64,000 bases of DNA, taken from Porphyromonas gingivalis ATCC 33277 (GTDB lineage Bacteria; Bacteroidota; Bacteroidia; Bacteroidales; Porphyromonadaceae). The stretch spans positions 606,501 through 670,500 of the forward strand of contig NC_010729.1 in assembly GCF_000010505.1 (NCBI RefSeq), given 5' to 3'. The position numbers and the translations under genes were made by a program. Below the pieces are notes generated by a model that had not been told where the DNA came from, did no database searches, and worked only from the letters and a program-made list of their open reading frames with translations. Shown here in pieces: positions 18,017 through 40,605 of the stretch. Position 1 is the first letter of the stretch; the number at the start of each line of letters is the position of its first letter.

Positions 18017-19354
18017 GAGACCTTTGCAAAATAAGGAGGTGGAGGGAAGAGGAGTTCTTCGCATAAAAGGAGCGAGTGAAAGGGGTGGCAGTAAGGAGTG
18101 AAAGTAGTTGTAAATCCCCCCTTTGAGGAGCTACTTGCACGAGCTCCTCAAGGGGGGTTATACCTTATCCTACAGATGAGGACATAATTATCCCCGGCGT
18201 TCTGTATAAATTAAAGGCGATGCTTTCAAGAATGTTTTGAGTATGGGTCTTGGCAAGTCCCCGGTATCGACATGTCCGCCATGAAACCACCGGCGAATAC
18301 TGCCAAAGGTGCGTTCGATGGTGCTCCGTATCGGACTGATTGCTTTGTTTCGTTGCTTCTCTTCCTCGGTCAATGCCCTGTTGCGTTGTGCCTTGTGCAT
18401 AATGCCGTCTTGAAGGTGATGGGTTTGCAGGTAGGAACGATTTTCCCCGCAAGCATATCCTTTGTCCGCCAAGACGGCTGTGCCTTGAGGTATGTTTGCA
18501 CCCTGCAATAGCGGAATAAACTCCTTCGTGTCACTGCGGTTCGCTGCAGTCGTTATCACCTTTTGAACAATGCCTTGAACATTGGTCAGACAATGCTTTT
18601 TGTATCCGTAGTGATAACGCTTTTGTTTGTAAACCCAACGGGCTTCTTCATCCGTCCCTTTACGCTGACGGACAACCTGTTTTTGATAATCCTCCTCTGC
18701 CTCTTTTTCCTCCTCGCTCCGATTGTCTTCTCTGTCGTCTGCGACTTCAATCGTAATGGTTCCGTTGGGTTTATGTGGCGTCTCCACAAGGCTTGCATCG
18801 ACAAGCACCCCTTCCCTGACCGAAATGTGATGGCGCGAAAGTTGTTTGTTAAACTGCGCCAACAGTTTGTCCATGAGACCCAACTCTGTCAGTGCCGAAC
18901 GAAATCGACTGATGGTGCTGTGGTCGGGAGATACCTCTTCCATCTTCAGTCCCAAGAATCGGGAAAAGGTGATTGAATCATTGATGCGCTCCTCCAAAGC
19001 ACAATCACTGAGGTTGTACCATGTCTCCAAAAGCAACATCTTGAATAAGAGAATCACGTCATAAGCCGGTGCGCCGATGGCATTTTGTCGCTTCGTGTAT
19101 TTCTTGTTGATCAGCGTCCTGATCGGACGCCAATCGATAAGCGTGTCAACCTGATTGAGGAAGTCGTTTTGTGCTTTGCGATAACGCTTTGAAAGGAGTG
19201 CGTCTGCAAATGTTACATGCTCATCGGTATTCTTGAATTGGTATGCCATGGGAGGAATATTATGCTGTTTTTACTACTCAAATATACAAAATAACTCCCT
19301 ATTATACAATGAATTAACAGACAAAATATACACTAATCGCCGTGCAAAGGTCTC
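18017..19354 (-). mobile_element. ISPg1 (IS1126) copy 1, IS5 family
   Basis: The element is 1,338 bp with terminal inverted repeats GAGACCTTTG...CAAAGGTCTC. It is in minus orientation. The flanks AATAG and TAAAA do not match, so there is no target duplication, and the sides were probably joined by recombination between ISPg1 copies. Its transposase has a frameshift. Confidence 0.95.
18165..19249 (-). pseudogene. ISPg1 transposase, frameshifted near the C-terminus
   Basis: The frame from 19249 follows the other ISPg1 transposases until FGSIRRWFHGG. One base is then missing (CGACATGTCCGCC here against CGACATCGTCCGCC in copy 5, around 18270), so the last about 38 residues are read out of frame and the product ends at 18188 with SPLIYTERRG. 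The normal ending (CRYRGLAKTHTQ ... SSSVG) lies in the next frame down to 18165. It may also be an acceptable variant, but the other four copies have 361 intact codons. Confidence 0.85.
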
Positions 19355-19544: not shown

Positions 19545-19629
19545 GGAGAGATGGTAGAGTGGTCGATTACAGCGGTCTTGAAAACCGCCGTACTGAAAGG
19601 TACCGGGGGTTCGAATCCCTCTCTCTCCG
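19545..19629 (+). tRNA. tRNA-Ser (anticodon TGA)
   Basis: The sequence folds as an 85-nt class II tRNA: acceptor GGAGAGA/TCTCTCC plus discriminator G, anticodon loop CTTGAAA (anticodon TGA), a long variable arm around TACTGAAAGGTA, and T arm GGGGGTTCGAATCCC. CCA is not encoded. An integrase remnant starts 275 bp downstream, so the tRNA is a candidate attachment site of the ICE. Confidence 0.95.
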
Positions 19630-19666
19630 CTGATAGGTCTGGACAAAAACAGACAATAAACGGACA

Positions 19667-19699
19667 AAAGCCTACAAGTTAATGACTTGTAGGCTTTTT
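19667..19699 (+). terminator. tRNA-Ser terminator
   Basis: AAAGCCTACAAGT and ACTTGTAGGCTTT are perfect 13-bp arms around TAATG, followed by a T-run. Confidence 0.9.
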
Positions 19700-19903
19700 T
19701 GTTTGTGTTTTGTCCTGTACGAAAGACAGAAAAAAGCCCCCAAAAGACACAAATTTGTGCCTAAATCGTTACCGATTCCGTTCCGGACAAAAACGGTAAC
19801 GATTTGTCCAAAAATGACCTCTTGCTGTCCAAATTTGTACAGTCTGTATATGTCTCACAATTAACACATTAATAGTGGTTTTGTAACATTAAAAAGTGAG
19901 ATT

Positions 19904-20128
19904 ATGAAGAGTACATTCAAAGTCCTTTTTTACCTAAAAAAAGGTTCGGAAAAGCGTAACGGAGAGGTAACAATTATGGCAAGAGTTACCGTTGACGGAA
20001 AAATCAGCCAATTTAGTACAAAACAAAGCATTCTACCTGATAATTGGAATGTAAAAGCAGGGAAAGCAACCGGGAAGTCTTGTGCACAGCTTAATAAGTT
20101 ACTGGAAGACATTAAAGCATCATTATGA
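19904..20128 (+). pseudogene. Tyrosine recombinase (ICE integrase), N-terminal fragment
   Basis: The fragment is 74 codons of an integrase of about 400 aa. It starts MKSTFKVLFYLKKG and shows the Arm DNA-binding domain typical of Bacteroides conjugative-transposon integrases (MARVTVDGKISQFSTKQSIL and DNWNVKAGKATGKS). ISPg1 copy 2 begins inside it at 20127, and the stop TGA is made of the last host base and the first two IS bases. The core-binding and catalytic domains are absent from this window, so the element cannot excise by itself. Confidence 0.85.
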
Positions 20129-21465
20129 GACCTTTGCACGGCGATAGGTGTGTATTTTGTTTATTAATTCATTGTATAATAGGGAGTTATTTTGTATATT
20201 TGAGCATTAAAAACAGCATAATATTCCTCCCATGGCATACCAATCCAAGAATACCGATGAGCATGTAACATTTGCAGACGCACTCCTTTCAAAGCGTTAT
20301 CGCAAAGCACAAAACGACTTCCTCAATCAGGTTGACACGCTTATCGATTGGCGTCCGATCAGGACGCTGATCAACAAGAAATACACGAAGCGACAAAATG
20401 CCATCGGCGCCCCGGCTTATGACGTGATTCTCTTATTCAAGATGTTGCTTTTGGAGACATGGTACAACCTCAGTGATTGTGCTCTGGAGGAGCGCATCAA
20501 TGATTCAATCACCTTTTCCCGATTCTTGGGACTGAAGATGGAAGAGGTATCTCCCGACCACAGCACCATCAGTCGATTTCGTTCGGCACTGACAGAGTTG
20601 GGTCTCATGGACAAACTATTGGCGCAGTTTAACAAACAACTTTCGCGCCATCACATTTCGGTCAGGGAAGGGGTGCTTGTGGATGCAAGCCTTGTGGAGA
20701 CGCCGCATAAACCCAACGGAAGCATTACGATTGAAGTCGCAGACGACAGAGAAGACAATCGGAGCGAGGCGGAAAAAGAGGCAGAGGAGGATTATCAAAA
20801 ACAGGTTGTCCGCCGGCGTAAAGGGACGGATGAAGAAGCCCGTTGGGTGTACAAACAAAAGCGTTATCACTACGGATACAAAAAGCATTGTCCGGCCAAT
20901 GTTCAAGGCATTGTTCAAAAGGTGATAACGACAGCAGCGAACCGCAGTGACACGAAGGAGTTTATTCCGCTATTGCAGGGTGCAAACATACCTCAAGGCA
21001 CAGCCGTCTTGGCGGACAAAGGATATGCTTGCGGGGAAAATCGTTCCTACCTGCAAACCCATCACCTTCAAGACGGCATTATGCACAAGGCACAACGCAA
21101 CAGGGCATTGACCGAGGAAGAGAAGCAAGGAAACAAAGCAATCGGTCCGATACGGAGCACCATCGAACGCACCTTTGGCAGTATTCGGCGGTGGTTTCAT
21201 GGCGGACGATGTCGATACCGGGGACTTGCCAAGACCCATACTCAAAACATTCTTGAAAGCATCGCCTTTAATTTATACAGAACGCCGGGGATAATTATGT
21301 CCTCATCCGTAGGATAAGGCATAACCCCCCTTGAGGAGCTCGTACAAGTAGCTCCTCAAAGGGGGGATTTACAACTACTTTCACTCCTTACTGCCACCCC
21401 TTTCCCTCGCTTCTTTTATGCGAAGAACTCCTCTTCCCTCCACCTCCTTATTTTGCAAAGGTCTC
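20127..21465 (+). mobile_element. ISPg1 (IS1126) copy 2
   Basis: The element is 1,339 bp with GAGACCTTTG ends. The left flank (ATTAT) interrupts an integrase; the right flank (CTATG) is a traN fragment. The flanks differ and belong to unrelated genes, so the copy marks an IS-IS deletion or rearrangement junction. A TATATTTG promoter box lies just inside the left end and drives the transposase. Confidence 0.95.
20232..21317 (+). CDS. ISPg1 transposase (IS5 family)
   Basis: The protein is 361 aa and intact. It has the IS5-family DUF772-type N-terminus (VILLFKMLLLETWYNLSDCA), the DDE residues in the region of LVDASLVETP, VLADKGYACGENR and IRSTIERTFGSIRRW, and a basic linker. It cuts and joins DNA at the inverted repeats of its own element. 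The sequence is almost identical to copies 3, 4 and 5, so these copies spread recently or are homogenised. Confidence 0.95.
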   Translation: MAYQSKNTDEHVTFADALLSKRYRKAQNDFLNQVDTLIDWRPIRTLINKKYTKRQNAIGAPAYDVILLFKMLLLETWYNLSDCALEERINDSITFSRFLGLKMEEVSPDHSTISRFRSALTELGLMDKLLAQFNKQLSRHHISVREGVLVDASLVETPHKPNGSITIEVADDREDNRSEAEKEAEEDYQKQVVRRRKGTDEEARWVYKQKRYHYGYKKHCPANVQGIVQKVITTAANRSDTKEFIPLLQGANIPQGTAVLADKGYACGENRSYLQTHHLQDGIMHKAQRNRALTEEEKQGNKAIGPIRSTIERTFGSIRRWFHGGRCRYRGLAKTHTQNILESIAFNLYRTPGIIMSSSVG

Positions 21466-21893
21466 CTATGGTAATCACTTCGTTAAAACTGCGGACGGGA
21501 TAAAGTACCGATTCCTGAATGGCAGTGCGCTTTGTCACCTTCTTATCGACCACCTTAAATTTAATGAAGTCCGTATCAAACGGAACATTGGAAGAGTTCT
21601 TCACCTGTGTATGGAAATAGAACATCCCGTTATGCACGTAAATTCCCTTGATTAAAAATTGTATCCCGAAACGCTTGCATCCCAAGTGGCGTATCTCTCG
21701 GTCATTGTTTTTATAGATGGATTGCATTATCAGTTTCACCAGCAACGGCGATTCATTACCCAGTTCACGGAAGTAAATGTTCATCCGGGTATGGGAATAA
21801 TCGGTTATACTTTCATTCTCAAGGAAATCTTTCATTTCTATATTCAGCATTTCCGGCTCATTGGCGTATTTGGCATTGAAAGAATACAAGCCC
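21466..21893 (-). pseudogene. traN internal fragment (second ICE lineage)
   Basis: About 142 codons match the middle of TraN. LGNESPLLVKLIMQSIYKNN and KRFGIQFLIKGIYVHNGMFY align with LGNESPLLVRLIMQSIHQNN and KRFGIQFTLKGIYTHNGLLY of the full-length TraN at 43184-44119. Identity is only moderate, so this comes from a different conjugative element. The 3' end is cut by ISPg1 copy 2 and the 5' end abuts the coupling-protein fragment on the opposite strand. It is non-functional. Confidence 0.85.
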
Positions 21894-22765
21894 AAGACCA
21901 GTTACAGGGGCAAATCGCATCGGCTAAGATACCGCTATCGAGAATGATAAGCCCGGCATTATACTGGGTAATGACGGGTGATGATTTTACGCTGGATATT
22001 AACAACCCGAACGAACCGAAGGTACTTTGTGTCGGCAACAATCCCGATAGGCAGAATATTTATTCCGCCGCTTTGGGACTGTACAACAGTCGTATAGTGA
22101 AACTTATTAACAAGAAGGGACAACTTAAAAGTTCAGTTATTATAGACGAACTACCCACGATTTACTTTAGGGGGTTGGATAACCTGATAGCCACCGCCCG
22201 TTCCAATAAAGTAGCAGTCTGTTTGGGTTTTCAGGATTACAGCCAACTAACAAGGGATTATGGCGATAAAGAAAGTAAAGTAATCCAAAATACAGTTGGA
22301 AATATTTTTAGCGGTCAGGTTGTAGGAGAAACAGCAAAAACATTGTCAGACCGATTCGGGAAAGTTTTGCAGAAACGCCAGTCTATGACAATCAACCGTC
22401 AGGATAAATCAACCTCAATCAGTACGCAGATGGATAGCTTGATACCTGCCAGTAAAATATCCAATCTTACCCAGGGAATGTTTGTGGGTGCAGTCAGTGA
22501 TAATTTTGATGAACGAATAGACCAAAAGATTTTCCATGCTGAAATTGTGGTGGATAACGAAAAGGTAAAACGTGAAACAGCCCGCTATGAAAAGATACCG
22601 GAAATTATTGACTTCCGGGATGCAGATGGCAACGACCTGATGAAAGAACAAATCCAACTTAATTATGACCGGATAAAGCAGGATGTAAAACAGATTGTCA
22701 TTGATGAAATGGAGCGCATTAAGGATGACCGGGAGTTACAGCATTTGGTGAAGAGGGAAGAATAG
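21890..22765 (+). pseudogene. Type IV coupling protein (VirD4/TraG-D, MobC-type), C-terminal fragment
   Basis: About 290 codons on the plus strand. They contain the TraG/TraD C-terminal ATPase region: VLCVGNNPDRQNIYSAALGL, then SSVIIDELPTIYFRGL (Walker B, IIDE) and ATARSNKVAVCLGFQDYSQL. Coupling proteins bring relaxase-bound DNA to the type IV channel during conjugation. The N-terminal half with Walker A is missing and replaced by the inverted traN fragment. In Bacteroides ICEs this gene stands next to the accessory genes and topB, as it does here. Confidence 0.8.
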
Positions 22766-22852: not shown

Positions 22853-25800
22853 ATGAGTCTAAACGCAGCACATGAAGGATATGAATATCAAGATTTACTA
22901 ACTGTCTATTATATTCTATCAGAGATACTGAACGGAAATAATGCCAATTTCATAATTGACAGAAAGCTAAATCCTGATGATGCCTTTGATGATTTAACTA
23001 TTGAAAGGTCTGGAATAATTCTAAAAAAACAAATTAAATATAGTAATGCCCATACATTACAAAAAAAGGATATTTCGGCGAATAGTAGTTACCAACTGGC
23101 AATTGACGATTTATACCACTCATGGCTTCGAAATAAAAATAATGAAGTACGATTATGCCTGGCATGGAATGAACCAACAGATGATTTAGTTCAAATACTA
23201 TCGGAGCAAAGCGGAAATAAAACATTTATTTCCCATCCAACCCGATTATTTCAAATCAATATAGATAAACTTTGGCCAGTAGGCAAAAAGCCTTTAGCAA
23301 AGTGGAAAAGATTTCGGGAGTCTTCTCAAAATATAAATAGGAATGATTTTGCTGAATTCTGCATGCATTTATATATAGAAACCAATTTCCCAAAATTTAG
23401 CCTGAATATTGATTCTCCGGGAGAATTAGAAACTGTAGTGTTTCAGCAGGCAGAATTATTGGGTATCGGAACGTTTCCCAATCATCATATTACAGTAAAA
23501 AATTTTGTAGCACGGCTTATTCTAAAAGTAAAAGAAGCCAGAAGTAAAGGACATAACATTCATACGCAATCTATATTCATTTCATTCAATATTAAAACGG
23601 ACTACGGAGCAATTGAGCAGAATTTTCCTATTGATAAACAAAAAAATGTAATAACAAAAAGGACTATCAATAATTTGATACATGAAATCCAAGGCCACAA
23701 GAAAGTAGTACTTTGGGGAGAGCCGGGTAGCGGAAAATCGTGGTTGGTTAATAATTTCATGACAACTGCTCAAAAAAATGGGGTACACATAGTAAAACAT
23801 TTTTGCTATACAGATTTAAAAGACCAATTACAAAAAGAACGGATAAAACAAAATACGCTTTATGGAAATTTAATATTCGATATCTTAAAAGTATTCCCTC
23901 ATCTTTCAGAAAAGAAAACACAGAAATATGCAAGCACCTTATCCGAATTAAATCTATTAATTCAAAACATAGACGAGCCTGCAATAATTATTATTGATGG
24001 GTTAGACCATATTGATAGGGTTTACAACTTTCATAATTATACCGACCTCTCAAGAGATGAAATTGAAATAATAGAAATCCTTGAAAATATAGAGTGTACG
24101 GAAAATGTTTCAATATTATTAGCTTCTCAACCTATTTCAAAGTTGAATAATATTTCCGGTTTTCACTCATTTGAAATACCAAAATGGAAAAAACAGGAGA
24201 TAATATCACTCTTAAAAAAACACAATATAGAGAATTTCATTATAAACGAAAAGGAGCTATCACAGATACTATTAGCCAAAAGTGAAGGTAACCCTCTATA
24301 TTTAACCTACCTCATTAAGGAATTGCAAAAAACGGGCGAAATTGAAGAGAACTTTATTAATAATCTTCCTGCATACTCGTACAATTTGAAAGAGTATTAT
24401 ACATATCTCCTCACAAAATTAAACACTCGGGAATCTTTACCGAAAATACTTTCCGGTGTTAATTTCTACCTTTCAAAAAATGAGCTCAAGGAGATTACAG
24501 GAGAAGGAGATTTTATAGAAGAAGCATTATCCGCACTTTCTCCAATACTAAAGACTAATATTTCTCAGGATGGCTATATCATTTATCATGAAAGTTTTCG
24601 AAGGTATGTTTTAGATATATTGAAAGATAAGAATGTATCAATAGAGCAGAATGTATTTAAGCCCACAATTGATTGGTTTAAAAGCAAAAATATTTTTTCA
24701 TATACAAAAGCGTACCGTTATGGCTTACAGTTTTTCTACAATTGTCATCAATACCAAGAAATAGAACAACATATTACAAAAGAGTTTATAGTAAACAGCG
24801 TCTCTTGGGGACAACCTTGGAAGTCGATAGAATGCAACATTCAGATAATGGCTCAGTCAGCCATCCATTTGCAAAACTTTAGTTTAATGATAATAGTAAA
24901 TGAATTATTCAAAACTATTGGTAGCGTAGAAAACAGCTACGAGAGCTCATTCAATGCTTATATGGAATGTATGGGAATGACCAAAGGGTTTGAATACGTT
25001 TCCAATTTCTTAACTTTTGAGGGAGAACCCACTTTGGATAATCCTGTACAGGGGCTTCAGGTTTGCTATATATCTTCACGGCATAATGCTTTTGCACCTT
25101 GGAATTTATATTTCGATTATTTTAAAAAAGGTGAAAAAATTCAACTTGAAGATTTTAAATACTATGTCAGATATTTCATTGCACAGGAAGATACCAAAGC
25201 ATTAGTTGAAATATCAAAAAAAGTAGTAAGAAAAAAGCTGAAACCATTTGAAGAAATTTTTGTACATGAATTTGAAACCATTTCAAATTCTGAATACCAA
25301 AAGAACCTTTTAAAGGCAGAACCCTCTATTACAAATATATGTATTAAGAAAAAGGATGACAAGCACAAAGGCATTGATACTTTAATACAGCAGATTAAAA
25401 CATCCAAAGGCTTTTCTGAAAAAGAAACTGAAATTGTTGCTGATTTTATTAATCAATGTAACATTCAAGAAATAGATAAAATTGAATATGAAAAAATATC
25501 CAAACAATTATCAGGCATAAACTGGTTCTATAACTGGCTTATTTACTGTGTAAAAATAACAATAATCAACAATAAGACAGATTATACTTTTGATGAGGTT
25601 AAAGAGGCTTTTTCATATTTAATATACGATACAGAACCATTTAAAGGAGAGCCTCGAACTTGTGATTTGTATTACATACAACCAGTTATATATAAGTCTA
25701 TTAAAGAAGGGTTAAGATTCGTCAATTCTGTAGAAGAATGGAAGTATATTATAAACCTGGTTATAGACGTGAGTTATAAAACAGGCACATCATTTCAAGG

Positions 25801-28465
25801 TTCTATAGGAGGGCCAATAGGAACAGATAAATTGTTTGCATTATTTGAAGAAATAGCAATTCCATCAAATGCAGAATATCTTTTAGAAAAAGCTATCGAA
25901 ATATATGAGGCTAATAAAGAAACCTTATATTTTTCATATCTCTCGGATTTTTGCTTTTCTATTTGCAAGCTCTGCCTTAAAGCCAATAAAAAAGACGATG
26001 CTGATGCATATTTTCTTTTAGGATCCCGGTATATGGTTAGCTATACATGGAGACGAGATATTACCTTATTCGAGGCAGTAGAATGTTTATCTTTTTTACC
26101 TCAACTAGACGCAGAATTAACAAAAGACAGCTTACAAAGAACATATGAGTTGGCCGAATCCGTAATTTATCATACAGACGGAAAAGATACGAAATGGCTA
26201 CCCATATATTGGTTTAAAGAATACGTGAAAATTGATTCGTTCGAAGCCTCTGTATGGTTAATGAATCAACTTTATAAAACTCGGTACTATTGGATATTAG
26301 AACACAATCTGCAAAATTTGTTAGAACATACACAAGGCGGTATAAACCCTATTGTAGAACAATTCATTTCAAACTCATTCATTGTTGAAAATGATGAATC
26401 CTACATCAAAACCACTATTAATATCAATGAGAAAATTGCAAATGAATCCCCTTTTTTAAACTCCTTTTTTGCTAAAAAGATTTATACTCGCCTTCAAAAT
26501 GAACGTCGCTCTGAATATTCGGATAGCTTGAATGATAAATTGCACAACTATTTTTCTTTATTGAATATCGAATACCAACCAGTAAAAAAACAAACTCCAC
26601 AAAGGAACAAAATACAAACAGAGAAAAAAAACAACTTTCGGACAAAAGAATTTTCAGATATGTCATTGTCTGAAATAGGTAATTGCGTTAAAAAAGGGAA
26701 TCTGTCAGAATCAGACTTTCATTCCTTGACCTATATCTTTGACAACTTAAAAATAGATGAAGAATCAAAGCAACTAATCAAAGATTGTGTCATTGGAAAT
26801 TCACGTTACAGATTTGATGATGACATTCCGTTAGAAAAACTGGGTATATTATTCGAAAGAAATAAGGAATTAAAAATCTACTTCAACGTTTTAGCATTCG
26901 TCTGGACGATTAGTGGTAATGGGAGTATTTTTCATCTCAAAGAAAAATTTAAAGAAGCATATTCTATAGATGCAGACAAATCCATCGAATATCTATTTGA
27001 GCTTCTTCCTATCATATTCAATGGAATAAACCGGGATTTTGCATGCAACTTATTAACAGCCTTAGTTGAAGCTGGATATGATTCAAAAAACATAATCGAT
27101 TCGGTTAAAAACCTCATTGATTGTATCGAATATAAAATTCCTGTTATCGAAAATAAAGATTGGAATCATGAGCTTGAAAATGAATTTGGTATGAATCAGG
27201 AGGAAATATTAATTTCTATTATGCTAATTCGTTCAAAAGCTTATACAACAGAGCGGCTTATACATACACTCACTGCATTTGCAACACTATTGTATAAGGA
27301 GCCTAACAAATTAATAAAACCATTGAAGTGGTTTTTCTGCAAACATGAATATTTTAAAGAATCGGTTATACTATGTGTATTAGATATTCTCTATGAATAC
27401 GATAAATTATATCCGGCATATATTAAAAACTTTACTTTTGAATTGGAAAAAATCTATCCTAAAAGATATTACTTAATAGATTGTCTTTTGGAACGATTTT
27501 TAAATAAAAAAGCATTTCCTATTATACTTCCGTCTCAGTCAGGGATATACCCCATTAATCGAAAGGATTTAGAAACGTTTTTATCCTTTAATAACAGATT
27601 AAAAAAGTTAGATGCTATAGAGATAGACGTAACTTCAGTTGTCGCCAAACACAAAACCATTTATTTGTCAAAACACAAAGACAAATTAGACCTATATGCA
27701 AATAGGTCTTATGAAATGTATGTAAAACATATCTATCCATCAGATTACATCTTACAAAGAATTAACACAGACCTGTATCAAGATTTAAGAACATTACAAA
27801 AAGAAGAAGAGGATGATTGCTACGATTTTCTCAGGATTAACACTAAAGCTTTAATTGCTCAAAATTTATCATTTTCATTGCGGCCAAAAGATTTAACTCT
27901 TCCATCACAAGGAAAAAGTTTAACTGAAAAATATCCAATAAAGAATGACAGTGGATGGATAAGATTAGCTCACTACGAAAATGAATTAAAAAAAAGAGAT
28001 AGACTTTTTGATTTGAAAGAATATCGGACTTGGGGTACTTGTCTTGGTGGTTTTAATAATTCAACTCCATTGGCTTTAGAAACACTTTATGATTATGCGT
28101 TTTGTTTACCAGATCATGGAGTGTTATTTGAATTTATACAGTACGACCCTTTAGAGAATTATCATTTATTTTGGCTTAATCCAATAATACTAGAACGGCT
28201 AGGAATAGTCATCAGTGACTTTTTGACTGGAATTGTCGCAAAAAATGAGAATGATGAAGTTGTATTAAAATATAATCAATGGAAAACTAATTACGTTGGT
28301 AATGGGGATTTTGGCATTAGAGAAGAAATACCAACAATTGAAGGTGTAGAGTTACTAATACGAGAAGACTATTTTAAAAAGATGCAACGAATTCTTGGTA
28401 AGCAATTATCGGAATATGTAACTCTATTTTTGAACTTCAAAGATGTTTCGAAAGAATCTGAGTGA
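22853..28465 (+). CDS. Giant STAND NTPase with N-terminal Cap4/DUF4297-like nuclease (Avs-like)
   Basis: The protein is 1,870 aa and the gene is clearly more AT-rich than the core genome. Residues 1-200: GYEYQDLLTVYYIL (9-22), then AFDDLTIE (44-51) and KKQIKYS (58-64). This fits the G-x-x-YQ helix and D...QxK core of Cap4/DUF4297-type PD-(D/E)XK nucleases. Residues 270-500 are a STAND ATPase: Walker A GEPGSGKS (289-296), Walker B IIIIDGLDHID (378-388), sensor-like SILLASQP, and a GNPLYL motif like GLPL of NB-ARC proteins. The remaining about 1,350 residues look helical and have no recognised fold; in Avs proteins this part is a TPR-like sensor of phage terminase or portal. The likely role is anti-phage abortive defence: target binding, oligomerisation, DNA cleavage. 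The role is inferred from architecture only. It is inserted as cargo between the coupling-protein fragment and the DUF3945 gene, with its own promoter box and terminator. Confidence 0.75.
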   Translation: MSLNAAHEGYEYQDLLTVYYILSEILNGNNANFIIDRKLNPDDAFDDLTIERSGIILKKQIKYSNAHTLQKKDISANSSYQLAIDDLYHSWLRNKNNEVRLCLAWNEPTDDLVQILSEQSGNKTFISHPTRLFQINIDKLWPVGKKPLAKWKRFRESSQNINRNDFAEFCMHLYIETNFPKFSLNIDSPGELETVVFQQAELLGIGTFPNHHITVKNFVARLILKVKEARSKGHNIHTQSIFISFNIKTDYGAIEQNFPIDKQKNVITKRTINNLIHEIQGHKKVVLWGEPGSGKSWLVNNFMTTAQKNGVHIVKHFCYTDLKDQLQKERIKQNTLYGNLIFDILKVFPHLSEKKTQKYASTLSELNLLIQNIDEPAIIIIDGLDHIDRVYNFHNYTDLSRDEIEIIEILENIECTENVSILLASQPISKLNNISGFHSFEIPKWKKQEIISLLKKHNIENFIINEKELSQILLAKSEGNPLYLTYLIKELQKTGEIEENFINNLPAYSYNLKEYYTYLLTKLNTRESLPKILSGVNFYLSKNELKEITGEGDFIEEALSALSPILKTNISQDGYIIYHESFRRYVLDILKDKNVSIEQNVFKPTIDWFKSKNIFSYTKAYRYGLQFFYNCHQYQEIEQHITKEFIVNSVSWGQPWKSIECNIQIMAQSAIHLQNFSLMIIVNELFKTIGSVENSYESSFNAYMECMGMTKGFEYVSNFLTFEGEPTLDNPVQGLQVCYISSRHNAFAPWNLYFDYFKKGEKIQLEDFKYYVRYFIAQEDTKALVEISKKVVRKKLKPFEEIFVHEFETISNSEYQKNLLKAEPSITNICIKKKDDKHKGIDTLIQQIKTSKGFSEKETEIVADFINQCNIQEIDKIEYEKISKQLSGINWFYNWLIYCVKITIINNKTDYTFDEVKEAFSYLIYDTEPFKGEPRTCDLYYIQPVIYKSIKEGLRFVNSVEEWKYIINLVIDVSYKTGTSFQGSIGGPIGTDKLFALFEEIAIPSNAEYLLEKAIEIYEANKETLYFSYLSDFCFSICKLCLKANKKDDADAYFLLGSRYMVSYTWRRDITLFEAVECLSFLPQLDAELTKDSLQRTYELAESVIYHTDGKDTKWLPIYWFKEYVKIDSFEASVWLMNQLYKTRYYWILEHNLQNLLEHTQGGINPIVEQFISNSFIVENDESYIKTTININEKIANESPFLNSFFAKKIYTRLQNERRSEYSDSLNDKLHNYFSLLNIEYQPVKKQTPQRNKIQTEKKNNFRTKEFSDMSLSEIGNCVKKGNLSESDFHSLTYIFDNLKIDEESKQLIKDCVIGNSRYRFDDDIPLEKLGILFERNKELKIYFNVLAFVWTISGNGSIFHLKEKFKEAYSIDADKSIEYLFELLPIIFNGINRDFACNLLTALVEAGYDSKNIIDSVKNLIDCIEYKIPVIENKDWNHELENEFGMNQEEILISIMLIRSKAYTTERLIHTLTAFATLLYKEPNKLIKPLKWFFCKHEYFKESVILCVLDILYEYDKLYPAYIKNFTFELEKIYPKRYYLIDCLLERFLNKKAFPIILPSQSGIYPINRKDLETFLSFNNRLKKLDAIEIDVTSVVAKHKTIYLSKHKDKLDLYANRSYEMYVKHIYPSDYILQRINTDLYQDLRTLQKEEEDDCYDFLRINTKALIAQNLSFSLRPKDLTLPSQGKSLTEKYPIKNDSGWIRLAHYENELKKRDRLFDLKEYRTWGTCLGGFNNSTPLALETLYDYAFCLPDHGVLFEFIQYDPLENYHLFWLNPIILERLGIVISDFLTGIVAKNENDEVVLKYNQWKTNYVGNGDFGIREEIPTIEGVELLIREDYFKKMQRILGKQLSEYVTLFLNFKDVSKESE

Positions 28466-28650: not shown

Positions 28651-30135
28651 ATGGATGTAAATTCAAACAACAAGTCCGCCTCTGATGAACAGATGATGGA
28701 CATTCTTCTTGTCTTTGACAAGGAAAAGAAAACGATTAATGCCGTAAAGGGTATTGATGAAAACGGGGAACTGCAAACCGTTCCGCCGAAGCAGGAACAT
28801 AATAACGATTTCCTGAAAGTGGATAAGCAGGGTAACGCACTTGAAAATTTCTTGAAGAACTTTTTCAACCAGCTAAAAGACCCGACCCGTTTCAGTTTCT
28901 TCAAAATAGCACCCGAAGATACCGAACGGACAGTAAAAATCATTCAGGAGAATATCAAGAACCCGACACCTGCTGCCGATGAAATGCTTGATAAAATCCG
29001 TATCGAGCCTAAAGACCTGAAAGTGGAAAATCCGAAAGAATCCACAACACAGGAACAGAAGCCCGATACAAATAAGTATTTCATTGACCCTAACAAAATC
29101 AACTGGGACGACCTGAAAAATCTGGGTGTCACCAAAGAACAGCTTGAAAAATCAAAGGCTTTGGAGCCTATGCTGCAGGGATATAAGTCGCCTTCTACCT
29201 TTCCGATTGAAGCCAACTTCGGGTCAATGGTAATGAAAACGGATGCCCGTCTTTCGTTCCGTCCGGACAGTGAAGGGAATGTGGTATTGGCTATTCATGG
29301 CACCCGTAAAGGACCGGAACTTGACCGTCCGTTTTTTGGACACCAGTTTACGGATGAAGACAAAAAGAATCTTCGGGAAACCGGAAACATGGGTAGGATT
29401 GTTGATGTAAAAAACTACCGTACAGGCGAACTTATACCTTCTTTTATCAGTATCGACAAACAGACCAATGAACTGGTATCCATGAAGGCTTCGTCCCTCA
29501 AACTCCCTGATGAAATAAAAGGCGTTAAGCTGGATGAAAAACAAAAAGCTGACCTGATGGAAGGTAAAGCGGTATTCCTTGAAAATATGATTTCCGCCAA
29601 GAATAAGCCGTTCTCTGCCTTCGTTCAGGTTAATGCGGAGAAACGCAGCCTTGAATTTATCTTTCCTGAAAAAGAGCAAAAACAAACCCAACAACAGGGA
29701 CAACAGCAGAGGAACGACCAGCCAGAAGGGGTGCGTATTCCCAAATTCCTTGCAGGAGTGGAATTATCCGATAAACAGCAGGCTGATTTGCGGGCAGATA
29801 AAACCATCTATGTAAAAGGGCTGAAAGATAAAGAAGGTCAGGAATATAACGCCTATGTAAAGGTAAACCATGAAAAAGGAAAACTGGATTTCTACAAATT
29901 CAATCCTGATAAAGTGAAAGAGAAAGCCAAAGAAATAACCCCTGCCAACGAACATAAAACACAAGTAGCGGTCAATTCCGAAGGCAAAACGAACGAAGCG
30001 ACCAAGCATACGAAAGAACCTTTGAAGCCCGGACAAGCTACACCTACCGGGGAACAGAAGAAAAAGCGGGAAGAAAAGAAAGAAGAACAGAAGCCCGACA
30101 AACCTAAAAAGTCGCAAGGTCGCAAAATGAAATAA
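28651..30135 (+). CDS. ICE protein with DUF4099 and two DUF3945 repeats
   Basis: The protein is 494 aa. Residues 1-110 form an N-terminal domain (MMDILLVFDKEKKTINAVKG). Residues 140-225 match the DUF4099 type (NWDDLKNLGVTKEQLEKSKA, SFRPDSEGNVVLAIHG). Two DUF3945 repeats follow, about 285-345 (GVKLDEKQKADLMEGKAVFL) and 370-430 (GVELSDKQQADLRADKTIYV). The tail of about 60 residues is Lys/Glu rich and disordered. This protein regularly precedes topB in Bacteroides conjugative elements. Its function is unknown, possibly in transfer DNA processing. It is 95 bp from topB. Confidence 0.8.
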   Translation: MDVNSNNKSASDEQMMDILLVFDKEKKTINAVKGIDENGELQTVPPKQEHNNDFLKVDKQGNALENFLKNFFNQLKDPTRFSFFKIAPEDTERTVKIIQENIKNPTPAADEMLDKIRIEPKDLKVENPKESTTQEQKPDTNKYFIDPNKINWDDLKNLGVTKEQLEKSKALEPMLQGYKSPSTFPIEANFGSMVMKTDARLSFRPDSEGNVVLAIHGTRKGPELDRPFFGHQFTDEDKKNLRETGNMGRIVDVKNYRTGELIPSFISIDKQTNELVSMKASSLKLPDEIKGVKLDEKQKADLMEGKAVFLENMISAKNKPFSAFVQVNAEKRSLEFIFPEKEQKQTQQQGQQQRNDQPEGVRIPKFLAGVELSDKQQADLRADKTIYVKGLKDKEGQEYNAYVKVNHEKGKLDFYKFNPDKVKEKAKEITPANEHKTQVAVNSEGKTNEATKHTKEPLKPGQATPTGEQKKKREEKKEEQKPDKPKKSQGRKMK

Positions 30136-30230: not shown

Positions 30231-32312
30231 ATGATAGCAGTAATAGCAGAAAAACCCAGTGTGGCAAGAGATATAGCCACCGTACTGGGTGCAACAAAAA
30301 AGAATGACGGGAACATTTCAGGTAACGGATACATCGTTACCTGGGCGTTCGGTCATTTGGTAGGACTTGCCATGCCTGATGCCTACGGAATCGAAAACTT
30401 CAGTCGGGAAAATTTACCCATACTACCGCAGTCGTTCCGGCTTATTCCCCGTCAGGTAAAAACCGACAAAGGACATAAGCCCGATAGCGGAACGGTTAAG
30501 CAACTCAAGGTTATCAAAGAAGTATTCGACCAGTGCGATAAAATTATCGTTGCTACTGATGCCGGAAGGGAAGGTGAATTGATATTCAGGTACATCTACC
30601 AATATCTTGAGTGCCGGAAACCTTTTGTCTGCTTATGGATAAGTAGCCTGACGGATAAAGCCATCCGGGAAGGATTGCAGAATCTCAAGGACGGGACAAT
30701 GTACGATAACCTTTTCCGGTCGGCAAAGGCAAGAAGCGAAGCAGATTGGCTTATCGGTATTAATGCTTCCCAAGCGTTAAGTATAGCTGCCGGACGGGGG
30801 ACGTATTCTTTGGGACGGGTACAGACACCCACGCTGGCGATGATATGTTCCCGTTATCTTGAGAACAAGAACTTCGTTCCACAGAAGTATTGGCAACTGA
30901 AATTACAAACCGGGAAAGATAGCATCGAATTTTCAGCCCTTTCAGAAGAAAAATTCGATAGCCAGCAACCTACCATCGACAAGCTGCAAACAGTAAAGGA
31001 TAGCGGTCAGGTGCAGGTTAAATCAGTAGAATGTAAGGAAGTGAACCAAGAACCACCGCTTTTGTATGACCTTACCTCCTTGCAGAAGGGAGCCAATACA
31101 AAACTTAATTTCTCCGCAGATAAAACGCTGTCTATTGCACAAAAACTCTATGAAGGCAAGCTGATTTCATACCCCCGAACCGGAAGCCGTTATATATCAC
31201 AGGACGTTTTCTATGAAATACCGGAACGTATTTCCCTGCTGGATACTTACGACCGGTTTGCCGGCTACGCAAAATCAATGAAAGGTAGTAATCTGAACCG
31301 TCGAACAGTGGATGATAAAAAAGTTACAGACCATCACGCATTGATTATAACCGAGAATAAGCCCGGCAGTTTACAGGCGGATGAACAAGCAATATACGAA
31401 CTGGTTGCCGGAAGGATGCTGGAAGCTTTTTCGCAAAAGTGTGTCAAGGAAGTTACTTCAATTTCTCTCACCAGTGGCGACAGTATTTTTGCAGTGAAAG
31501 GAACAGTAATAAAGTCTGCCGGATGGCGGGCTGTTTTCAACACCCAAGAAGAAGGCGAAAAAAATACCGTTTTGCCAGCATTAAAAGAAGGTGATAATTT
31601 AGCTCTCTCCGATATTGAGTTGCTGGAAAAGCAGACTAAGCCCAAACCGTTGCATACGGAAAGTTTGTTGCTATCGGCTATGGAGAACGCAGGGAAAGAA
31701 CTGGAAGATGTCGAACTGAAAGCCAGCATGAAGGATTCCGGTATCGGTACGCCAGCGATACGGGCAGCGATTATCGAAACTCTCTTTACTCGTCAATATA
31801 TTGTCAGGGAGAAGAAAGCCCTTGTGCCGACTGAAAAGGGACTGGCGGTTTACGATATAGTCCGGGACAAGAAAATCGCAGACGTGGAAATGACAGGGAT
31901 GTGGGAAAATGCCCTTTCCAAAATAGAAAGCGGGGAAATGAATCCCGATACTTTCCATAAAAGTACCGAAGTTTATGCTTCACAAATAACCAGCGAACTG
32001 TTAGGAATGCAGCTCACCTTAAAAACGCAGCTGGATTTAATCTGTCCGAAATGCGAAACAGGTAAAATTATGCTGTATCCGAAAGTTGCCAAATGTGATA
32101 ATACCGATTGTGGGCTAATCGTTTTCAGGAATAAAAGCGATAAGCAGCTATCCGACAAACAGGTTATGGAACTGGTAACAGCCAAGAAAACCGGATTAAT
32201 AAAAGGCTTCAAGAGTAAAGCCAGGAAGTCTTTCGATGCTTCACTGGCTTTTGACGACCAGCTCAATGTTGTATTCGTTTTCCCTGAAAAGAAAGGGAAA
32301 TCAAGGAAATAA
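30231..32312 (+). CDS. topB: DNA topoisomerase III (ICE-type)
   Basis: The protein is 693 aa. It has an N-terminal toprim domain (VIAEKPSVARDIATVLGA and VATDAGREGELIF), a type IA core with the active-site Tyr in ISYPRTGSRYIS (about residue 312), and the usual IGTPAIRAAIIETL block. A C-terminal zinc-finger-like segment follows (CPKCETGKIMLYPK with CDNTDCG). It relaxes or decatenates DNA with single-strand breaks. The plasmid/ICE lineage of topB is a standard part of Bacteroides conjugative transposons and probably helps element replication or transfer. It appears intact. Confidence 0.95.
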   Translation: MIAVIAEKPSVARDIATVLGATKKNDGNISGNGYIVTWAFGHLVGLAMPDAYGIENFSRENLPILPQSFRLIPRQVKTDKGHKPDSGTVKQLKVIKEVFDQCDKIIVATDAGREGELIFRYIYQYLECRKPFVCLWISSLTDKAIREGLQNLKDGTMYDNLFRSAKARSEADWLIGINASQALSIAAGRGTYSLGRVQTPTLAMICSRYLENKNFVPQKYWQLKLQTGKDSIEFSALSEEKFDSQQPTIDKLQTVKDSGQVQVKSVECKEVNQEPPLLYDLTSLQKGANTKLNFSADKTLSIAQKLYEGKLISYPRTGSRYISQDVFYEIPERISLLDTYDRFAGYAKSMKGSNLNRRTVDDKKVTDHHALIITENKPGSLQADEQAIYELVAGRMLEAFSQKCVKEVTSISLTSGDSIFAVKGTVIKSAGWRAVFNTQEEGEKNTVLPALKEGDNLALSDIELLEKQTKPKPLHTESLLLSAMENAGKELEDVELKASMKDSGIGTPAIRAAIIETLFTRQYIVREKKALVPTEKGLAVYDIVRDKKIADVEMTGMWENALSKIESGEMNPDTFHKSTEVYASQITSELLGMQLTLKTQLDLICPKCETGKIMLYPKVAKCDNTDCGLIVFRNKSDKQLSDKQVMELVTAKKTGLIKGFKSKARKSFDASLAFDDQLNVVFVFPEKKGKSRK

Positions 32313-32453
32313 TCTGAAATTCTGTATCTTTACCACAGAAAATTCCATTATGAATAGATTTTATGCTATCCGTAATTGAGGATTTTTGTGGTTAGCACCC
32401 GGTGGGGACGCCGTGTGCTTTTCGTAAAAGCTATTTATGTAGAATAATAGACA

Positions 32454-34094
32454 ATGAGTACAGATGTAAAAAACAAAATTATAGTTCCGAAAGACTTGCA
32501 TGGTTCTAAATTGCTATGCTTTCTTCATCCTAATAGATTTGAGACTGAGGATAAAAAACAAGCTGTTGAATTATTACATAAAATTTGCATGACAAATCTG
32601 ACGGATTTCCACAAGTCAAATCAAATTAAAGATTTAATCCTAACAGAGGAAGAACGGAAGCTTGTTTTATTTCACGAATGGAACAATTCTGAAAACGCAG
32701 AAGTGAAATCACGCTGTAGTGATGTTCTTTGTAGATTTGAGAAAGATAAACGTTTCATAAAAGTAATAATATCAAATAATTATCTTGTCGCTTATCAGTT
32801 ATTTGGTGAGATTGAATTTTTAATCCGCTCAATTACAGTTCGTGATATCAAGATTCTTAATACTGATGATTTTTTGAAAGATATCTTATCTGCAATTAAC
32901 GATAAATTTAGTCATCCATTTTGGATTCAGAGAGTTGTTGATTCTATAAAAAAATCATACCCTGTAGAAAAACTTGAAAAATTATGCAATTATATTGAAT
33001 GTCAAAAAAACAGCTTGATTGACGGTAATTATTCCGAAAAAAGAGAGTATATAAAAGCCCAATACTCACTTAAAGTAATAAGTAAGCAGATGTTTCATAA
33101 AGAAATGGCTTTATGTTTTGAAAATGAAGCAGATGCCACTGTGAATAATAAAGAGCCGAATACTTTTTATCCGAATTTAGTTGATATTTACCAAAATGCA
33201 TATAATGAAATTTTTCAAATTAAAAATCAAGCACCAGAAGAGTTTGAAAGGATAAAAGGTAAGTTGCTACAAGAAAAGTCTGATTTTATGGATATGCTTT
33301 CTCTCTGCGGTATTAAAACTCAAATAGAACTTTCTGATGATTTCATTAAAAGTGTAGAAAAATCCGTTTCAAAAATCACTATAGGTAATTTTATTGACAC
33401 AATTAACCTGATGCTTTCAATTCCTTTCATGACTTCGGAAGGAGTCAGTTCCTATGAAGCAGCAGTGAGAAAGGCAAGCCCTGTGTCTTCTATGTTTGGA
33501 CACAATCAGTTAGATAAAAAGGGAAATGTCGTAGGCGTAGCAGAGTCAGAGAAGTCATTAAAAACAGAAGCTCATATTTATTTTCGACAAAAAAGGCTGT
33601 ACGCAATATGGACATATATCAATCTTCATCAATGGTCAAATATAAAATCGGAAGAGGATTTTATCTATTTCTATTTGCAAAAGGAAAAACCAGTATATAT
33701 AGAAGAAGAAAACTTGATATTTTGGACTAAAGGAATTGCCGCAGGCTTAAATAAAGACTTTATAAGTGCATCTCATATCCTAATGCCATATTTAGAGCAT
33801 GCTTTGCATAATATTGCTGAAATCACAAAGGGAAACATAACTACTTTAGAGAAAAAACGTCAAGAGGCTCCTTCTTTAGGTGTAATTTTCCCGATGCTTC
33901 AAGGCGTGATTGACGAAGAAATACTATATGAAATAGAATCCTTTCTACAAAATGGGATAGATGTCAATTTCAGGAATAATTTGTCTCATGGACTTCTAAC
34001 TCATTTTGAAATTGAGAAATATGGAATCTATTTGTGGTGGATATGCTTAAAACTGTATTTTGAAGGAAAGAGTATAATTAAAATCGTTCCCTAA
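32454..34094 (+). CDS. DUF4209-domain protein with HEPN-like motif
   Basis: The protein is 546 aa, AT-rich in codon use and helical throughout. The C-terminal DUF4209 region has RNNLSHGLL (about residues 511-519), where R-N-x-x-S-H fits the R-x4-H catalytic pattern of HEPN ribonucleases, followed by a helix ending KYGIYLWWICLKLYF. DUF4209 has no established function. A HEPN-type RNase toxin or defence role is my inference from this motif and from the location: cargo directly after topB in a decayed ICE. Its last 17 bp overlap the convergent HTH gene. No partner antitoxin gene is adjacent on the same strand. Confidence 0.65.
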   Translation: MSTDVKNKIIVPKDLHGSKLLCFLHPNRFETEDKKQAVELLHKICMTNLTDFHKSNQIKDLILTEEERKLVLFHEWNNSENAEVKSRCSDVLCRFEKDKRFIKVIISNNYLVAYQLFGEIEFLIRSITVRDIKILNTDDFLKDILSAINDKFSHPFWIQRVVDSIKKSYPVEKLEKLCNYIECQKNSLIDGNYSEKREYIKAQYSLKVISKQMFHKEMALCFENEADATVNNKEPNTFYPNLVDIYQNAYNEIFQIKNQAPEEFERIKGKLLQEKSDFMDMLSLCGIKTQIELSDDFIKSVEKSVSKITIGNFIDTINLMLSIPFMTSEGVSSYEAAVRKASPVSSMFGHNQLDKKGNVVGVAESEKSLKTEAHIYFRQKRLYAIWTYINLHQWSNIKSEEDFIYFYLQKEKPVYIEEENLIFWTKGIAAGLNKDFISASHILMPYLEHALHNIAEITKGNITTLEKKRQEAPSLGVIFPMLQGVIDEEILYEIESFLQNGIDVNFRNNLSHGLLTHFEIEKYGIYLWWICLKLYFEGKSIIKIVP

Positions 34095-35574: not shown

Positions 35575-36648
35575 TAACGTCAGTTCGACGTAAGAAAAAG
35601 CCAATGGATTTGTTTTCTGATTAGTGGTAAACGCCCAAAGAACGTGGGCATTATGCTTGAAAAAGTAGCGAATTATTTGTATCTTAGCTGTTGACAATCA
35701 ATAAGATACGAACAAACAAAACGCTACTTTATGAAGACAAATATAGTTGATGTTTTTTGCATCATAGATGATTTCTCCAAGCTTTTTGATGAAGCAATCA
35801 AGAAAAAGACCCTCGAAGAGGCAGACAAAAAACGCAGGAATAGAAAGTTTAAGATGTCGGACAGTGAGGTCATGACCATCCTGATCCTGTTTCATCTGTC
35901 AAGATACCGAGATTTGAAAGCTTTTTATCTTCAATACATCACCCATTCTTGTCGATCCGAGTTCCCACATCTTGTCTCTTATAATCGCTTTGTGGAGCTG
36001 CAAAGCAGGGTAGGTTTCAAGCTGATAGCATTTCTCAATATGTGTTGTTTGGGTCAATGTACAGGCATCTCTTTCATCGATTCCACCCCACTGAAGGCTT
36101 GTCATATCAAACGAGCTCATGGGCATAGGACAATGAGGGGATGGGCTCAAAAAGGCAAAAGCACCATGGGTTGGTTTTATGGATTCAAGCTACATATTGT
36201 TATCAACGACAGGGGTGAAATCATCAACTATCAAATCACACCGGGCAATTGTGATGACAGAGAACCTCTGAAAGACGGAACATTCACCAAGAATCTTTTT
36301 GGCAAACTCATTGCCGATAGAGGCTACATTTCCCAAAACCTTTTTGACCGGCTCTTTGTCGATGACATCCACATGATAACCAAAATCAAAAAGAACATGA
36401 AGAACTCCCTGATGCATCTATATGACAAAGTTTTATTGAGAAAGAGAGCCTTGATCGAAACGGTCAATGATATGCTCAAAAATGTCTGTCAGATAGAGCA
36501 CACGAGACATCGCAGTGTCAACAATTTTGTCACCAACCTGATCTCCGGTATCATCGCTTACAACATCCTGCCTAAAAAGCCTGAACTCAATATTGAAATC
36601 ATCAGAAACCCTAACTTTCCTATTTCCGCTTAGATCGAACTGACGTTA
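35575..36648 (+). mobile_element. IS982-family insertion sequence (IS195/ISPg2-ISPg3 type)
   Basis: The element is about 1,074 bp, bounded by 14-bp inverted repeats TAACGTCAGTTCGA (35575-35588) and TCGAACTGACGTTA (36635-36648). The left side is the primase/RepA gene on the minus strand and the right side a different gene on the plus strand. The flanks show no duplication, so a deletion or rearrangement occurred here. Which named ISPg element this is cannot be settled without comparison. Confidence 0.85.
35731..36633 (+). CDS. IS982-family transposase
   Basis: The protein is 300 aa, the usual IS982 length. It shows SDSEVMTILILFHLSRYRD near the N-terminus and the DDE elements GISFIDSTPLKACH (Asp), KLIADRGYIS (Asp) and KRALIETVNDMLKN (Glu). 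It appears intact. The stop codon is only 1 bp from the right inverted repeat. Confidence 0.93.
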   Translation: MKTNIVDVFCIIDDFSKLFDEAIKKKTLEEADKKRRNRKFKMSDSEVMTILILFHLSRYRDLKAFYLQYITHSCRSEFPHLVSYNRFVELQSRVGFKLIAFLNMCCLGQCTGISFIDSTPLKACHIKRAHGHRTMRGWAQKGKSTMGWFYGFKLHIVINDRGEIINYQITPGNCDDREPLKDGTFTKNLFGKLIADRGYISQNLFDRLFVDDIHMITKIKKNMKNSLMHLYDKVLLRKRALIETVNDMLKNVCQIEHTRHRSVNNFVTNLISGIIAYNILPKKPELNIEIIRNPNFPISA

Positions 36649-39546: not shown

Positions 39547-40605
39547 TTGCATGAAACAAAAAATTATATACGCAATAATCCGAAAATCAAGAGGGCTGCA
39601 AACCGAATGGGCACTTTCTTTACATATAATCCCTTATGGCACGAGCAAATCGGTAAGATTTATGCTCTGTTGGAACGTGTAAAGATTTCGGAGGAGCAGT
39701 CGAAAGACGTATTGCACCTGAGAAGAACAAACCGCATTCTTACGGTCGGCTCTACAACGGCTATTGAGGGCAACAGGCTCACTGTCCAGCAGGTGTTTGA
39801 TGTGATTAACGACAAGGTCGTGTTTGCTCCTCTGCACGATATTCAAGAGGTGAAAAACGCTTTTTCGGCATACGGGCAAATACCCGATTTATATCCATAT
39901 AGCGTTGATGACCTTCTGAAAGCACACAGGGCTATCACCGAGAATCTCATTCAAGAGTCGGGGCAATTCCGTAGTGTTGGCGTTGCCGTTGTCGATAGCA
40001 AGGGAAAGGTGTTGCATTCGGGAGCAAATTTTGAAGAAGTGCCCGCACGGGTTGCCGAGCTATTGGAGTGGGGAAAAACAACCGATACGCACGCACTTAT
40101 AAAGAGTTCGGCCATGCACTTTATGATAGAGCATATTCATCCGTTCCGCGACGGAAACGGCAGAATAGGACGGCTTTGGCAGACACTTATTCTCTCGAAA
40201 TGGAACGAGCTTTTTGAGTGGCTTCCCGTAGAGACAATGATTTACTACAACCAGGAAAAGTATTACCAAGCCCTGCAACAATCGCAATCCAACAGCGGTA
40301 CGCCCGACTGTCGCCCCTTTATCGACTTTATGCTTGATATTATCGGAAACGCGATGGTTCGATATGTTGAAAGCGAAGAGAAAGACAATGGTGGTTTAAG
40401 GGGTGGAATAAAAGGTGGATTAAATGAGGTTGAGCAAGCGATTGTCTCATTAATCAGAGAGAACCAATATATTAGAGTTTTTGAAATGGCTCAAAAACTC
40501 TCAAAGCCCGTCCGCACCATCGAGAATCATATTAGCCGGCTTAAAGAGCGAGGTATCGTATCCCGCATGGGCAGTAAGAAAACGGGCTACTGGAAAATTA
40601 ATTGA
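39547..40605 (+). CDS. Fic-family AMP-transferase with wHTH domain
   Basis: The open frame gives 352 aa from a TTG at 39547; the first in-frame ATG is at 39607 (MGTFFTYNPLW) and could be the true start. The Fic motif HPFRDGNGRIGR (198-209, numbered from the TTG) is complete, including the catalytic His. An inhibitory-helix motif TTAIEGN (70-76) precedes it, so the protein is a class II, self-inhibited Fic enzyme. The C-terminal about 60 residues form a winged helix (FEMAQKLSKPVRTIENHISR). It likely AMPylates (or otherwise nucleotidylates) a protein; the target is unknown. It converges with the PD-(D/E)XK-like gene, 30 bp apart. Confidence 0.85.
   Translation: MHETKNYIRNNPKIKRAANRMGTFFTYNPLWHEQIGKIYALLERVKISEEQSKDVLHLRRTNRILTVGSTTAIEGNRLTVQQVFDVINDKVVFAPLHDIQEVKNAFSAYGQIPDLYPYSVDDLLKAHRAITENLIQESGQFRSVGVAVVDSKGKVLHSGANFEEVPARVAELLEWGKTTDTHALIKSSAMHFMIEHIHPFRDGNGRIGRLWQTLILSKWNELFEWLPVETMIYYNQEKYYQALQQSQSNSGTPDCRPFIDFMLDIIGNAMVRYVESEEKDNGGLRGGIKGGLNEVEQAIVSLIRENQYIRVFEMAQKLSKPVRTIENHISRLKERGIVSRMGSKKTGYWKIN

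Follow-up and report, generated by a model that had tools for sequence, protein, structure and literature searches.

A probable Avs-like, DNA-cutting immune receptor of an uncatalogued type in the cargo slot of a degraded conjugative element of Porphyromonas gingivalis

The stretch of DNA analysed here, referred to as the window, comprises 64,000 nucleotides (positions 606501-670500) of the single-contig genome of Porphyromonas gingivalis ATCC 33277. Within it, a conjugative element carries a gene for a protein of 1,870 amino acids, in which a predicted nuclease domain, a STAND NTPase with a winged helix, and a large C-terminal putative sensor follow one another in a single chain (Table 1). 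An earlier note, drawn from the letters of the sequence, had proposed an Avs-like giant STAND NTPase with a Cap4-type nuclease, borne as cargo of an integrative conjugative element. The open reading frame is real and uninterrupted, and the motifs that the note had named are present (GEPGSGKS, IIIIDGLDHID, GNPLYL, and the N-terminal G-x-x-YQ/QxK), with key residues identical in all 11 long rows, i.e., the window protein and ten relatives. Specifically, residues G9, Y10, Y12, Q13, D36, D46, D47, Q60, and K62 are invariant in and around the N-terminal string GYxYQ ... FDDL ... QIK, and G479 and N480 of GNPLYL have one deviating row each. These rows are divergent: in blocks of 100 residues across residues 1-1600, their mean pairwise identity is 27-60%, and the persistence of identical key residues among them therefore argues against a chance origin of the motifs.

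Table 1. Features of the gene, its protein, and the surrounding element (window coordinates)
Feature	Position	Strand	Remarks
Avs-like Cap4-nuclease/STAND gene, single fused reading frame	22853..28465	+	1870 aa, uninterrupted
Predicted nuclease domain, PD-(D/E)XK-type topology	22853..23617	+	about residues 1-255
D46 D47, candidate metal-binding acidic residues	22988..22993	+	identical 11/11; on strand 45-52 of model
Q60-x-K62, candidate (D/E/Q)xK active-site half	23030..23038	+	identical 11/11; on strand 55-63 of model
STAND NTPase with winged helix	23618..24682	+	about residues 256-610
Walker A GEPGSGKS	23717..23740	+	residues 289-296; G294, K295, S296 identical 11/11
Walker B IIIIDGLDHID	23984..24016	+	residues 378-388; D382, G383, D385, H386 identical 11/11
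GNPLYL, STAND GxP-type motif	24287..24304	+	residues 479-484; P481, L482 identical 11/11
YHESFRRY, winged-helix motif	24584..24607	+	residues 578-585; H579, S581, F582, R583 identical 11/11
Putative sensor part 1, long alpha-helical superhelix	24683..27517	+	about residues 611-1555
Putative sensor part 2, C-terminal ~300 residues	27560..28462	+	equals separate 283-301-aa protein in Pseudomonadota/Campylobacterota
5'-truncated mobC, left border of cargo slot	21659..22765	+	positions 377-655 of 655, Bacteroid_MobC
Perfect 8+8 nt inverted repeat directly before start codon	22823..22845	.	TTTGCTAT/ATAGCAAA
DUF4099/DUF3945 gene, right border of cargo slot	28651..30135	+	Pfam
DUF4209-type protein, PADLOC phage-defence candidate PDC-S39	32454..34094	+	546 aa; PADLOC E 2.9e-35
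Fic-family protein with winged helix, PADLOC SoFic model	39547..40605	+	E 8e-40; Pfam Fic 1.4e-18
PD-T7-1 homologue, full length, catalogued anti-phage system	40636..42018	-	E 1.2e-146, positions 3-448 of 452

The NTPase is the only part of the window protein that Pfam recognises, through P-loop and NACHT-type matches (NPHP3_N, 2.6e-7; AAA_22, 1.5e-6; NACHT, 2.7e-5; AAA, 2.9e-4) that are all confined to residues 281-431. The P-loop, Walker B, the GxP-type motif GNPLYL, and the winged helix stand in the order typical of STAND proteins. Upstream of this switch, a model of residues 1-700 found its best Foldseek match in Avs3 (PDB 8dgc), with Avs5 at rank 7, and by VIA structure alignment the predicted N-terminus shares a PD-(D/E)XK-type fold with the Cap4/DUF4297 antiphage nucleases. 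The Cap4-type nuclease that had been proposed thus appears in the prediction, and the effector-STAND-sensor order is supported by the model of the domains together with the order of the motifs. D46, D47, Q60, and K62 are residues of catalytic type and may well form the active site. The nuclease assignment draws on predicted fold and motif, and hardly on sequence profiles. In its favour, scans of the whole proteins with PADLOC endonuclease models match five of the 11 rows to SAVED_PDDEXK (best 5.6e-4) and four to Effector/Endonuclease (best 7e-4), at places within the proteins that the scans do not show; the window protein is in neither group. Members of Cap4_nuclease were found in two of 198 genomes of the order (one of them above the cut-off) and in two plasmid records, too few to build a profile for comparison. 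In another genome of the order, Cap4_nuclease matches the N-terminus of a different STAND-like protein, encoded next to a gene that by eye is restriction/methylase-like.

The roughly 1,350 C-terminal residues, described in the earlier note as having no recognised fold, do lack any family match; in a low-confidence model, they resolve into a helical superhelix and a tail of about 290 residues. This model, of residues 671-1870 and built with 12 rows, consists almost entirely of helices up to residue 1700 or so and shows long strands only beyond that point, and most of the tail has a predicted local distance difference test (pLDDT) score under 50. Its listed structural neighbours are mostly HEAT-type superhelices, including CAND1, CRM1, the PP2A scaffold, and importins, which suggest a superhelix and nothing further. 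No Avs structure was among the Foldseek rows listed for this half or among the 50 VIA rows for its model; the latter result excludes nothing. The C-terminal half would be the sensor.

The tail is separable: it is a gene of its own in other bacteria and is fused in the window protein. In relatives from Pseudomonadota and Campylobacterota, the large frame stops at a point that, judged by eye from the alignment, corresponds to about residue 1555, and a second frame of 283-301 residues begins within its last codons. This second frame is intact, separate, and overlapping in seven of the eight long rows from these phyla; in the eighth (L010), the downstream region reads in several frames, through either decay or sequencing error. 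The overlap measures 8 nt in L002, L006, L009, and L015, and 8 nt with the annotated start or 11 nt with the mechanical start in L003; with mechanical starts, it is 20 nt in L012 and 34 nt in L005. Homology between the two arrangements is evident from searches with the window tail: tblastn recovered the small gene on each of two plasmids (E 6e-13 and 1e-8), and blastp, in a database that comprised only 18 sequences, matched all but one of the seven small proteins within residues 1568-1849 (E 1.6e-13 to 1.5e-23). The remaining one, from L005, aligns with the tail in the multiple alignment. Single fused genes occur in the window (1,870 residues), in a second Bacteroidota genome (G690, locus L021; 1,887 residues), and in Pseudanabaena (L004; 2,007 residues). 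In a tree of 11 rows, one branch (100/100) parts the fused from the split forms, and it accommodates fusion and fission alike because the root is the midpoint and L004 is a long branch. As a portable domain of other systems, the tail was not found: among 72,556 plasmid records, it occurred in two, both known relatives, and among 385 genomes of the phylum in two, the window's own and G690.

Sequence comparisons within the family show that the C-terminal half changes faster than the N-terminal half. Between the window protein and L021, identity is 51.0% in the nuclease and 50.7% in the STAND part, as against 30.9% and 33.2% in the two helical parts and 30.4% in the tail. In addition, the closely related trio L002, L006, and L009 appears to be mosaic, with a break near a module border and with no one member settled as the recombinant. 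Between L002 and L006, identity rises from 87.7% in the nuclease to 97.4% in the second helical part; between L002 and L009, it falls from 93.7% in the nuclease to 80.3% in the first helical part. L002 accordingly groups with L009 before the breakpoint and with L006 after it (632 informative sites, chi-square 196, maximum 18.5 in 2000 shuffles). The breakpoint corresponds to residue 690 of the window protein, shortly past the STAND part, and the small gene follows the helical part, although its extreme end does so less clearly. L009 stands farthest apart from L002 and L006 in the segment that corresponds to residues 734-968; there, nucleotide identity in 250-bp blocks drops to 72-83%, versus 80-94% in later blocks. 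Wherever dS could be computed, dN/dS was below 1; these three sequences therefore speak for exchange and faster change, and positive selection is not proven by them.

When compared with catalogued systems (PADLOC 2.0.0, NCBIfam 20.0, and Pfam), the window protein matched no family over its full length. In PADLOC, up to E 1, it matched only mad8 (E 1.7e-4, in the NTPase), and the NCBIfam Avs1b model gave 21.5 bits over residues 468-598 only, relative to a cut-off of 1500. Membership in a named Avs family was rejected on these grounds, as no PADLOC or NCBIfam profile was matched over the length. The label Avs-like that had been given to the protein consequently holds in the wide sense, i.e., for an effector, a STAND domain, and a large C-terminal putative sensor in one chain, and fails for any named Avs family by the models tested. 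Sequence searches of solved structures returned nothing useful for the whole protein, its profile, the N-terminus, or the tail, and no description of the family was found among the matches listed from open-access PubMed Central, which is a weak negative.

The nearest known system is Avs3 (AVAST type 3, 8dgc), with which the window protein shares a nuclease-STAND-long C-terminal part order and a chain of ~2000 residues. The nuclease domain of Avs3 is termed a cap4 domain in the portion of PMC11291478 consulted. Unlike Avs3, however, the window protein has relatives with a second, small gene, and PDB sequence searches detected no relation between the two at E<=1. Weak profile matches link two of the 11 rows to Avs1b (best 1.2e-10) and one to Avs4 (0.041); Avs1b, according to excerpts of PMC12799240, acts as a protease on a partner nuclease, which it cleaves, whereas the nuclease of the window protein is fused. 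HerA-DUF4297 and CBASS Cap4 share its predicted effector fold by VIA but lack a STAND domain. DUF4297 is activated by nuclease dimerisation (PMC11291478 and PMC12198126, in part) and is remodelled by the HerA ATPase (PMC12198126, in part); CBASS Cap4 is remodelled by a cyclic nucleotide, as judged from PDB titles. Finally, Avs5 (SIR2-STAND) has a similar receptor architecture, but it differs in its Sir2 NADase effector and its shorter C-terminal repeat region (PMC12931631, in part). Effector and switch are thus of known kinds, and what is new is an Avs-like family that is uncatalogued and whose putative sensor can be split.

This family is rare, patchy, and spread across phyla, with members in Bacteroidota, Pseudomonadota, Campylobacterota, and one cyanobacterial plasmid. 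By tblastn, relatives were found in three of 72,556 plasmid records (Pseudoalteromonas pMEGA, Moraxella osloensis pSKB0120-2, and Pseudanabaena ABRG53a) and in none of 50,697 phage records; likewise, none of 40 candidate stretches from viral contigs encoded one. A conserved-peptide scan of the genomes of 84,980 species, which relies on short patterns and therefore gives a lower bound on spread, yielded 46 candidate stretches with 16 relatives at 15 loci. Ten of these loci align from residue 1 (L005-L013 and L015, with L007, L008, L011, and L013 partial only), and five cover just part of the NTPase/winged-helix region. In the order, the window's own genome was the single match among 393. A profile search of the phylum matched nine of 395 genomes, and only the window's own and G690 matched over the length; in the family of G690, four of 294 genomes matched, with G690 alone over the length.

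The gene occupies a variable cargo slot between conserved transfer genes of a conjugative element, with mobC on one side and DUF4099-topB on the other. Relatives of the DUF4099 gene that borders the slot occur in 15 of 26 Porphyromonas genomes (30 matches, the window's own included). In the 16 next-strongest stretches of the genus, mobC lies upstream in 11 and does not show within the stretch taken in five, and none contains a relative of the gene. With this absence, and with both a PD-(D/E)XK-type fold and a STAND domain predicted, neither outcome that the earlier note had named as refuting its reading was found. By eye, the slot before DUF4099 holds ABC exporters, surface proteins, and other genes, with an identical set in L051 and L052. 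A second element of the same genome (L047, genome positions 80000-92500) combines a full-length mobC with other cargo, including a PDC-S02 gene (4.4e-140). The carrier in the window, in contrast, is degraded, as seen in its 5'-truncated mobC and several transposase copies, and the earlier description of the gene as cargo of an integrative conjugative element is to be qualified to that extent. The gene has a G+C content of 30-32%, whereas the transfer genes and DUF4099/topB have 43-51%; two stretches of other cargo, 32000-33999 and 41000-41999, are likewise AT-rich, at about 29-34% G+C (28.8% at 41000-41999). The element places the gene in the company of defence genes, namely homologues of PD-T7-1 and PDC-S39 together with a SoFic-like Fic protein.

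Several features of the element itself may be added. The PDC-S39 homologue lies directly after topB, in a second cargo position, and its DUF4209-like tail is slightly below the Pfam cut-off (E 3.1e-4). Five transposase genes (18188-19249, 20232-21317, 37070-38155, 49269-50354, and 52220-53305) are near-identical by eye and are presumably IS5-like; the region is broken up by these five and by a further transposase-like gene at 35731-36633. A tRNA-Ser (anticodon TGA), a 74-aa integrase-like fragment (by eye), and a transposase gene follow one another within 19545-21895, and a reversed fragment at 21416-21895 resembles, by eye, the TraN-type protein at 43184-44119. The element may have integrated at the tRNA-Ser and have been rearranged afterwards. 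The inverted repeat before the start codon (TTTGCTAT/ATAGCAAA) is unique in the window, with 0.03 occurrences expected at <=2 mismatches, and is possibly an operator; it overlaps TATCTTTG, which resembles the -7 box of Bacteroidota. A scan for sigma-70 sites was uninformative (36 versus 31.4 expected), and one for terminators found four (2.5 expected). In the published literature, PGN_0578/0579 are treated as transposition genes (PMC5378342, in part) and PGN_0578-0599 are placed under conjugation (PMC5329018, in part).

Defence genes also adjoin some of the relatives, as seen in a PADLOC scan of ten proteins, comprising nine neighbours from five loci and the Pseudanabaena protein itself. On the Moraxella plasmid (L003/L029), a PD-Lambda-4 gene with an Avs4-like N-terminus (2.3e-67) lies immediately upstream; the other two neighbours scanned there yielded weak matches in one case and nothing in the other. 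PDC-M62A/B is adjacent in L015, with type I restriction (5.7e-152) farther out, and a PDC-S23 gene lies immediately upstream in L011. In L010, a PDC-S05 gene is some 4 kb off, with housekeeping genes in between, and the neighbours in L008 gave weak helicase-type matches only. Finally, the annotation of L002 places a type I R subunit close to the relative.

Taken as a whole, the gene probably encodes a bacterial NLR-like (Avs-like) immune receptor, triggered by a ligand and cutting DNA, which is of an uncatalogued type and is part of the defence cargo that a degraded conjugative element bears. Beyond the predicted fold, its mode of action is modelled on work with Avs3 and DUF4297. At rest, the protein would be inactive and nucleotide-bound. 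A ligand of an invading phage or element would bind the superhelix, the tail, or both, whereupon ATP binding would allow the STAND domains to oligomerise, as in Avs3. Paired nuclease domains would thereby be activated and degrade DNA, such that the invader is cleared or the infected cell killed. Because the two-gene relatives supply the tail as a second polypeptide, it may serve either as a ligand-binding tip or as a licence for activation.

Several results weigh against an immune receptor of this kind. We know of no relative that has been shown to defend its host. The Pfam Cap4_nuclease model has no match in the window protein, its cut-off is not reached, and just one of 13 N-termini comes up, at an insignificant E of 0.92; a PDB profile search with the same 13 N-termini returned no nuclease at E<=10. 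With hhalign, one Cap4_nuclease-STAND sequence gave no match, and the N-terminus of another STAND protein gave a weak one (E 0.0021, probability 13.5%), which does pair GY..Q, DD, and QxK. The model of the C-terminal half is poor (mean pLDDT 58.7), and superposition on Avs3 leaves a root-mean-square deviation of 24.6 over 489, in that the domains agree and their arrangement does not. Lastly, the neighbours in L006, L009, and L012, inspected by eye only, include no obvious defence gene.

Among other explanations, the same machine could sense competing plasmids or conjugative elements, for example through a relaxase or a coupling protein, and so serve its own element. That the gene sits in a conjugative element's cargo slot and has three plasmid-borne relatives would fit such a role, but named Avs receptors sense phage proteins (PMC12931631, in part), and the remaining cargo includes a full-length PD-T7-1 homologue; this alternative is unlikely. 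It is very improbable that the gene is a dead remnant, intact-looking yet unexpressed in a decaying element, as the truncated mobC and the transposase copies might suggest: the frame stays open over its full 5.6 kb, every catalytic-type or NTPase residue that was checked is intact, and a gene so long would soon lose its open frame in the absence of selection. Least credible is a MalT-like STAND regulator of cell physiology, for although VIA places the maltose-system STAND protein 8bob first (Z 14.8, tied with 6mfv at 14.6), Pfam finds no DNA-binding output domain in the window protein, the predicted N-terminus folds like antiphage nucleases, the gene keeps defence-gene company, and its spread is patchy (one genome of the order and two of the phylum over the length, with the window's own in both).

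A more specific and more tentative proposal, to which we give somewhat less than even weight, is that the family comprises obligately two-part Avs-like receptors. A nuclease-STAND-superhelix chain would be joined by a ~290-residue detachable sensor tip or licence, the superhelix and tail would be exchanged by recombination together, as a single sensor unit, while the effector-NTPase unit is conserved, and the ligand recognised would be a phage or element protein that is new as an Avs trigger.

The NLR-like receptors of bacteria detect invaders via C-terminal sensors, for which few ligand/sensor pairs are known. In the present family, the putative sensor is naturally divided between two genes in some members, close relatives resemble sensor/effector mosaics, and differences are concentrated in one stretch, and because these occur together, the parts that read the ligand and those that license the nuclease become separable by test. 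For P. gingivalis, phages of which have been documented only recently (PMC10367356, in part), the finding adds a defence-rich mobile element.
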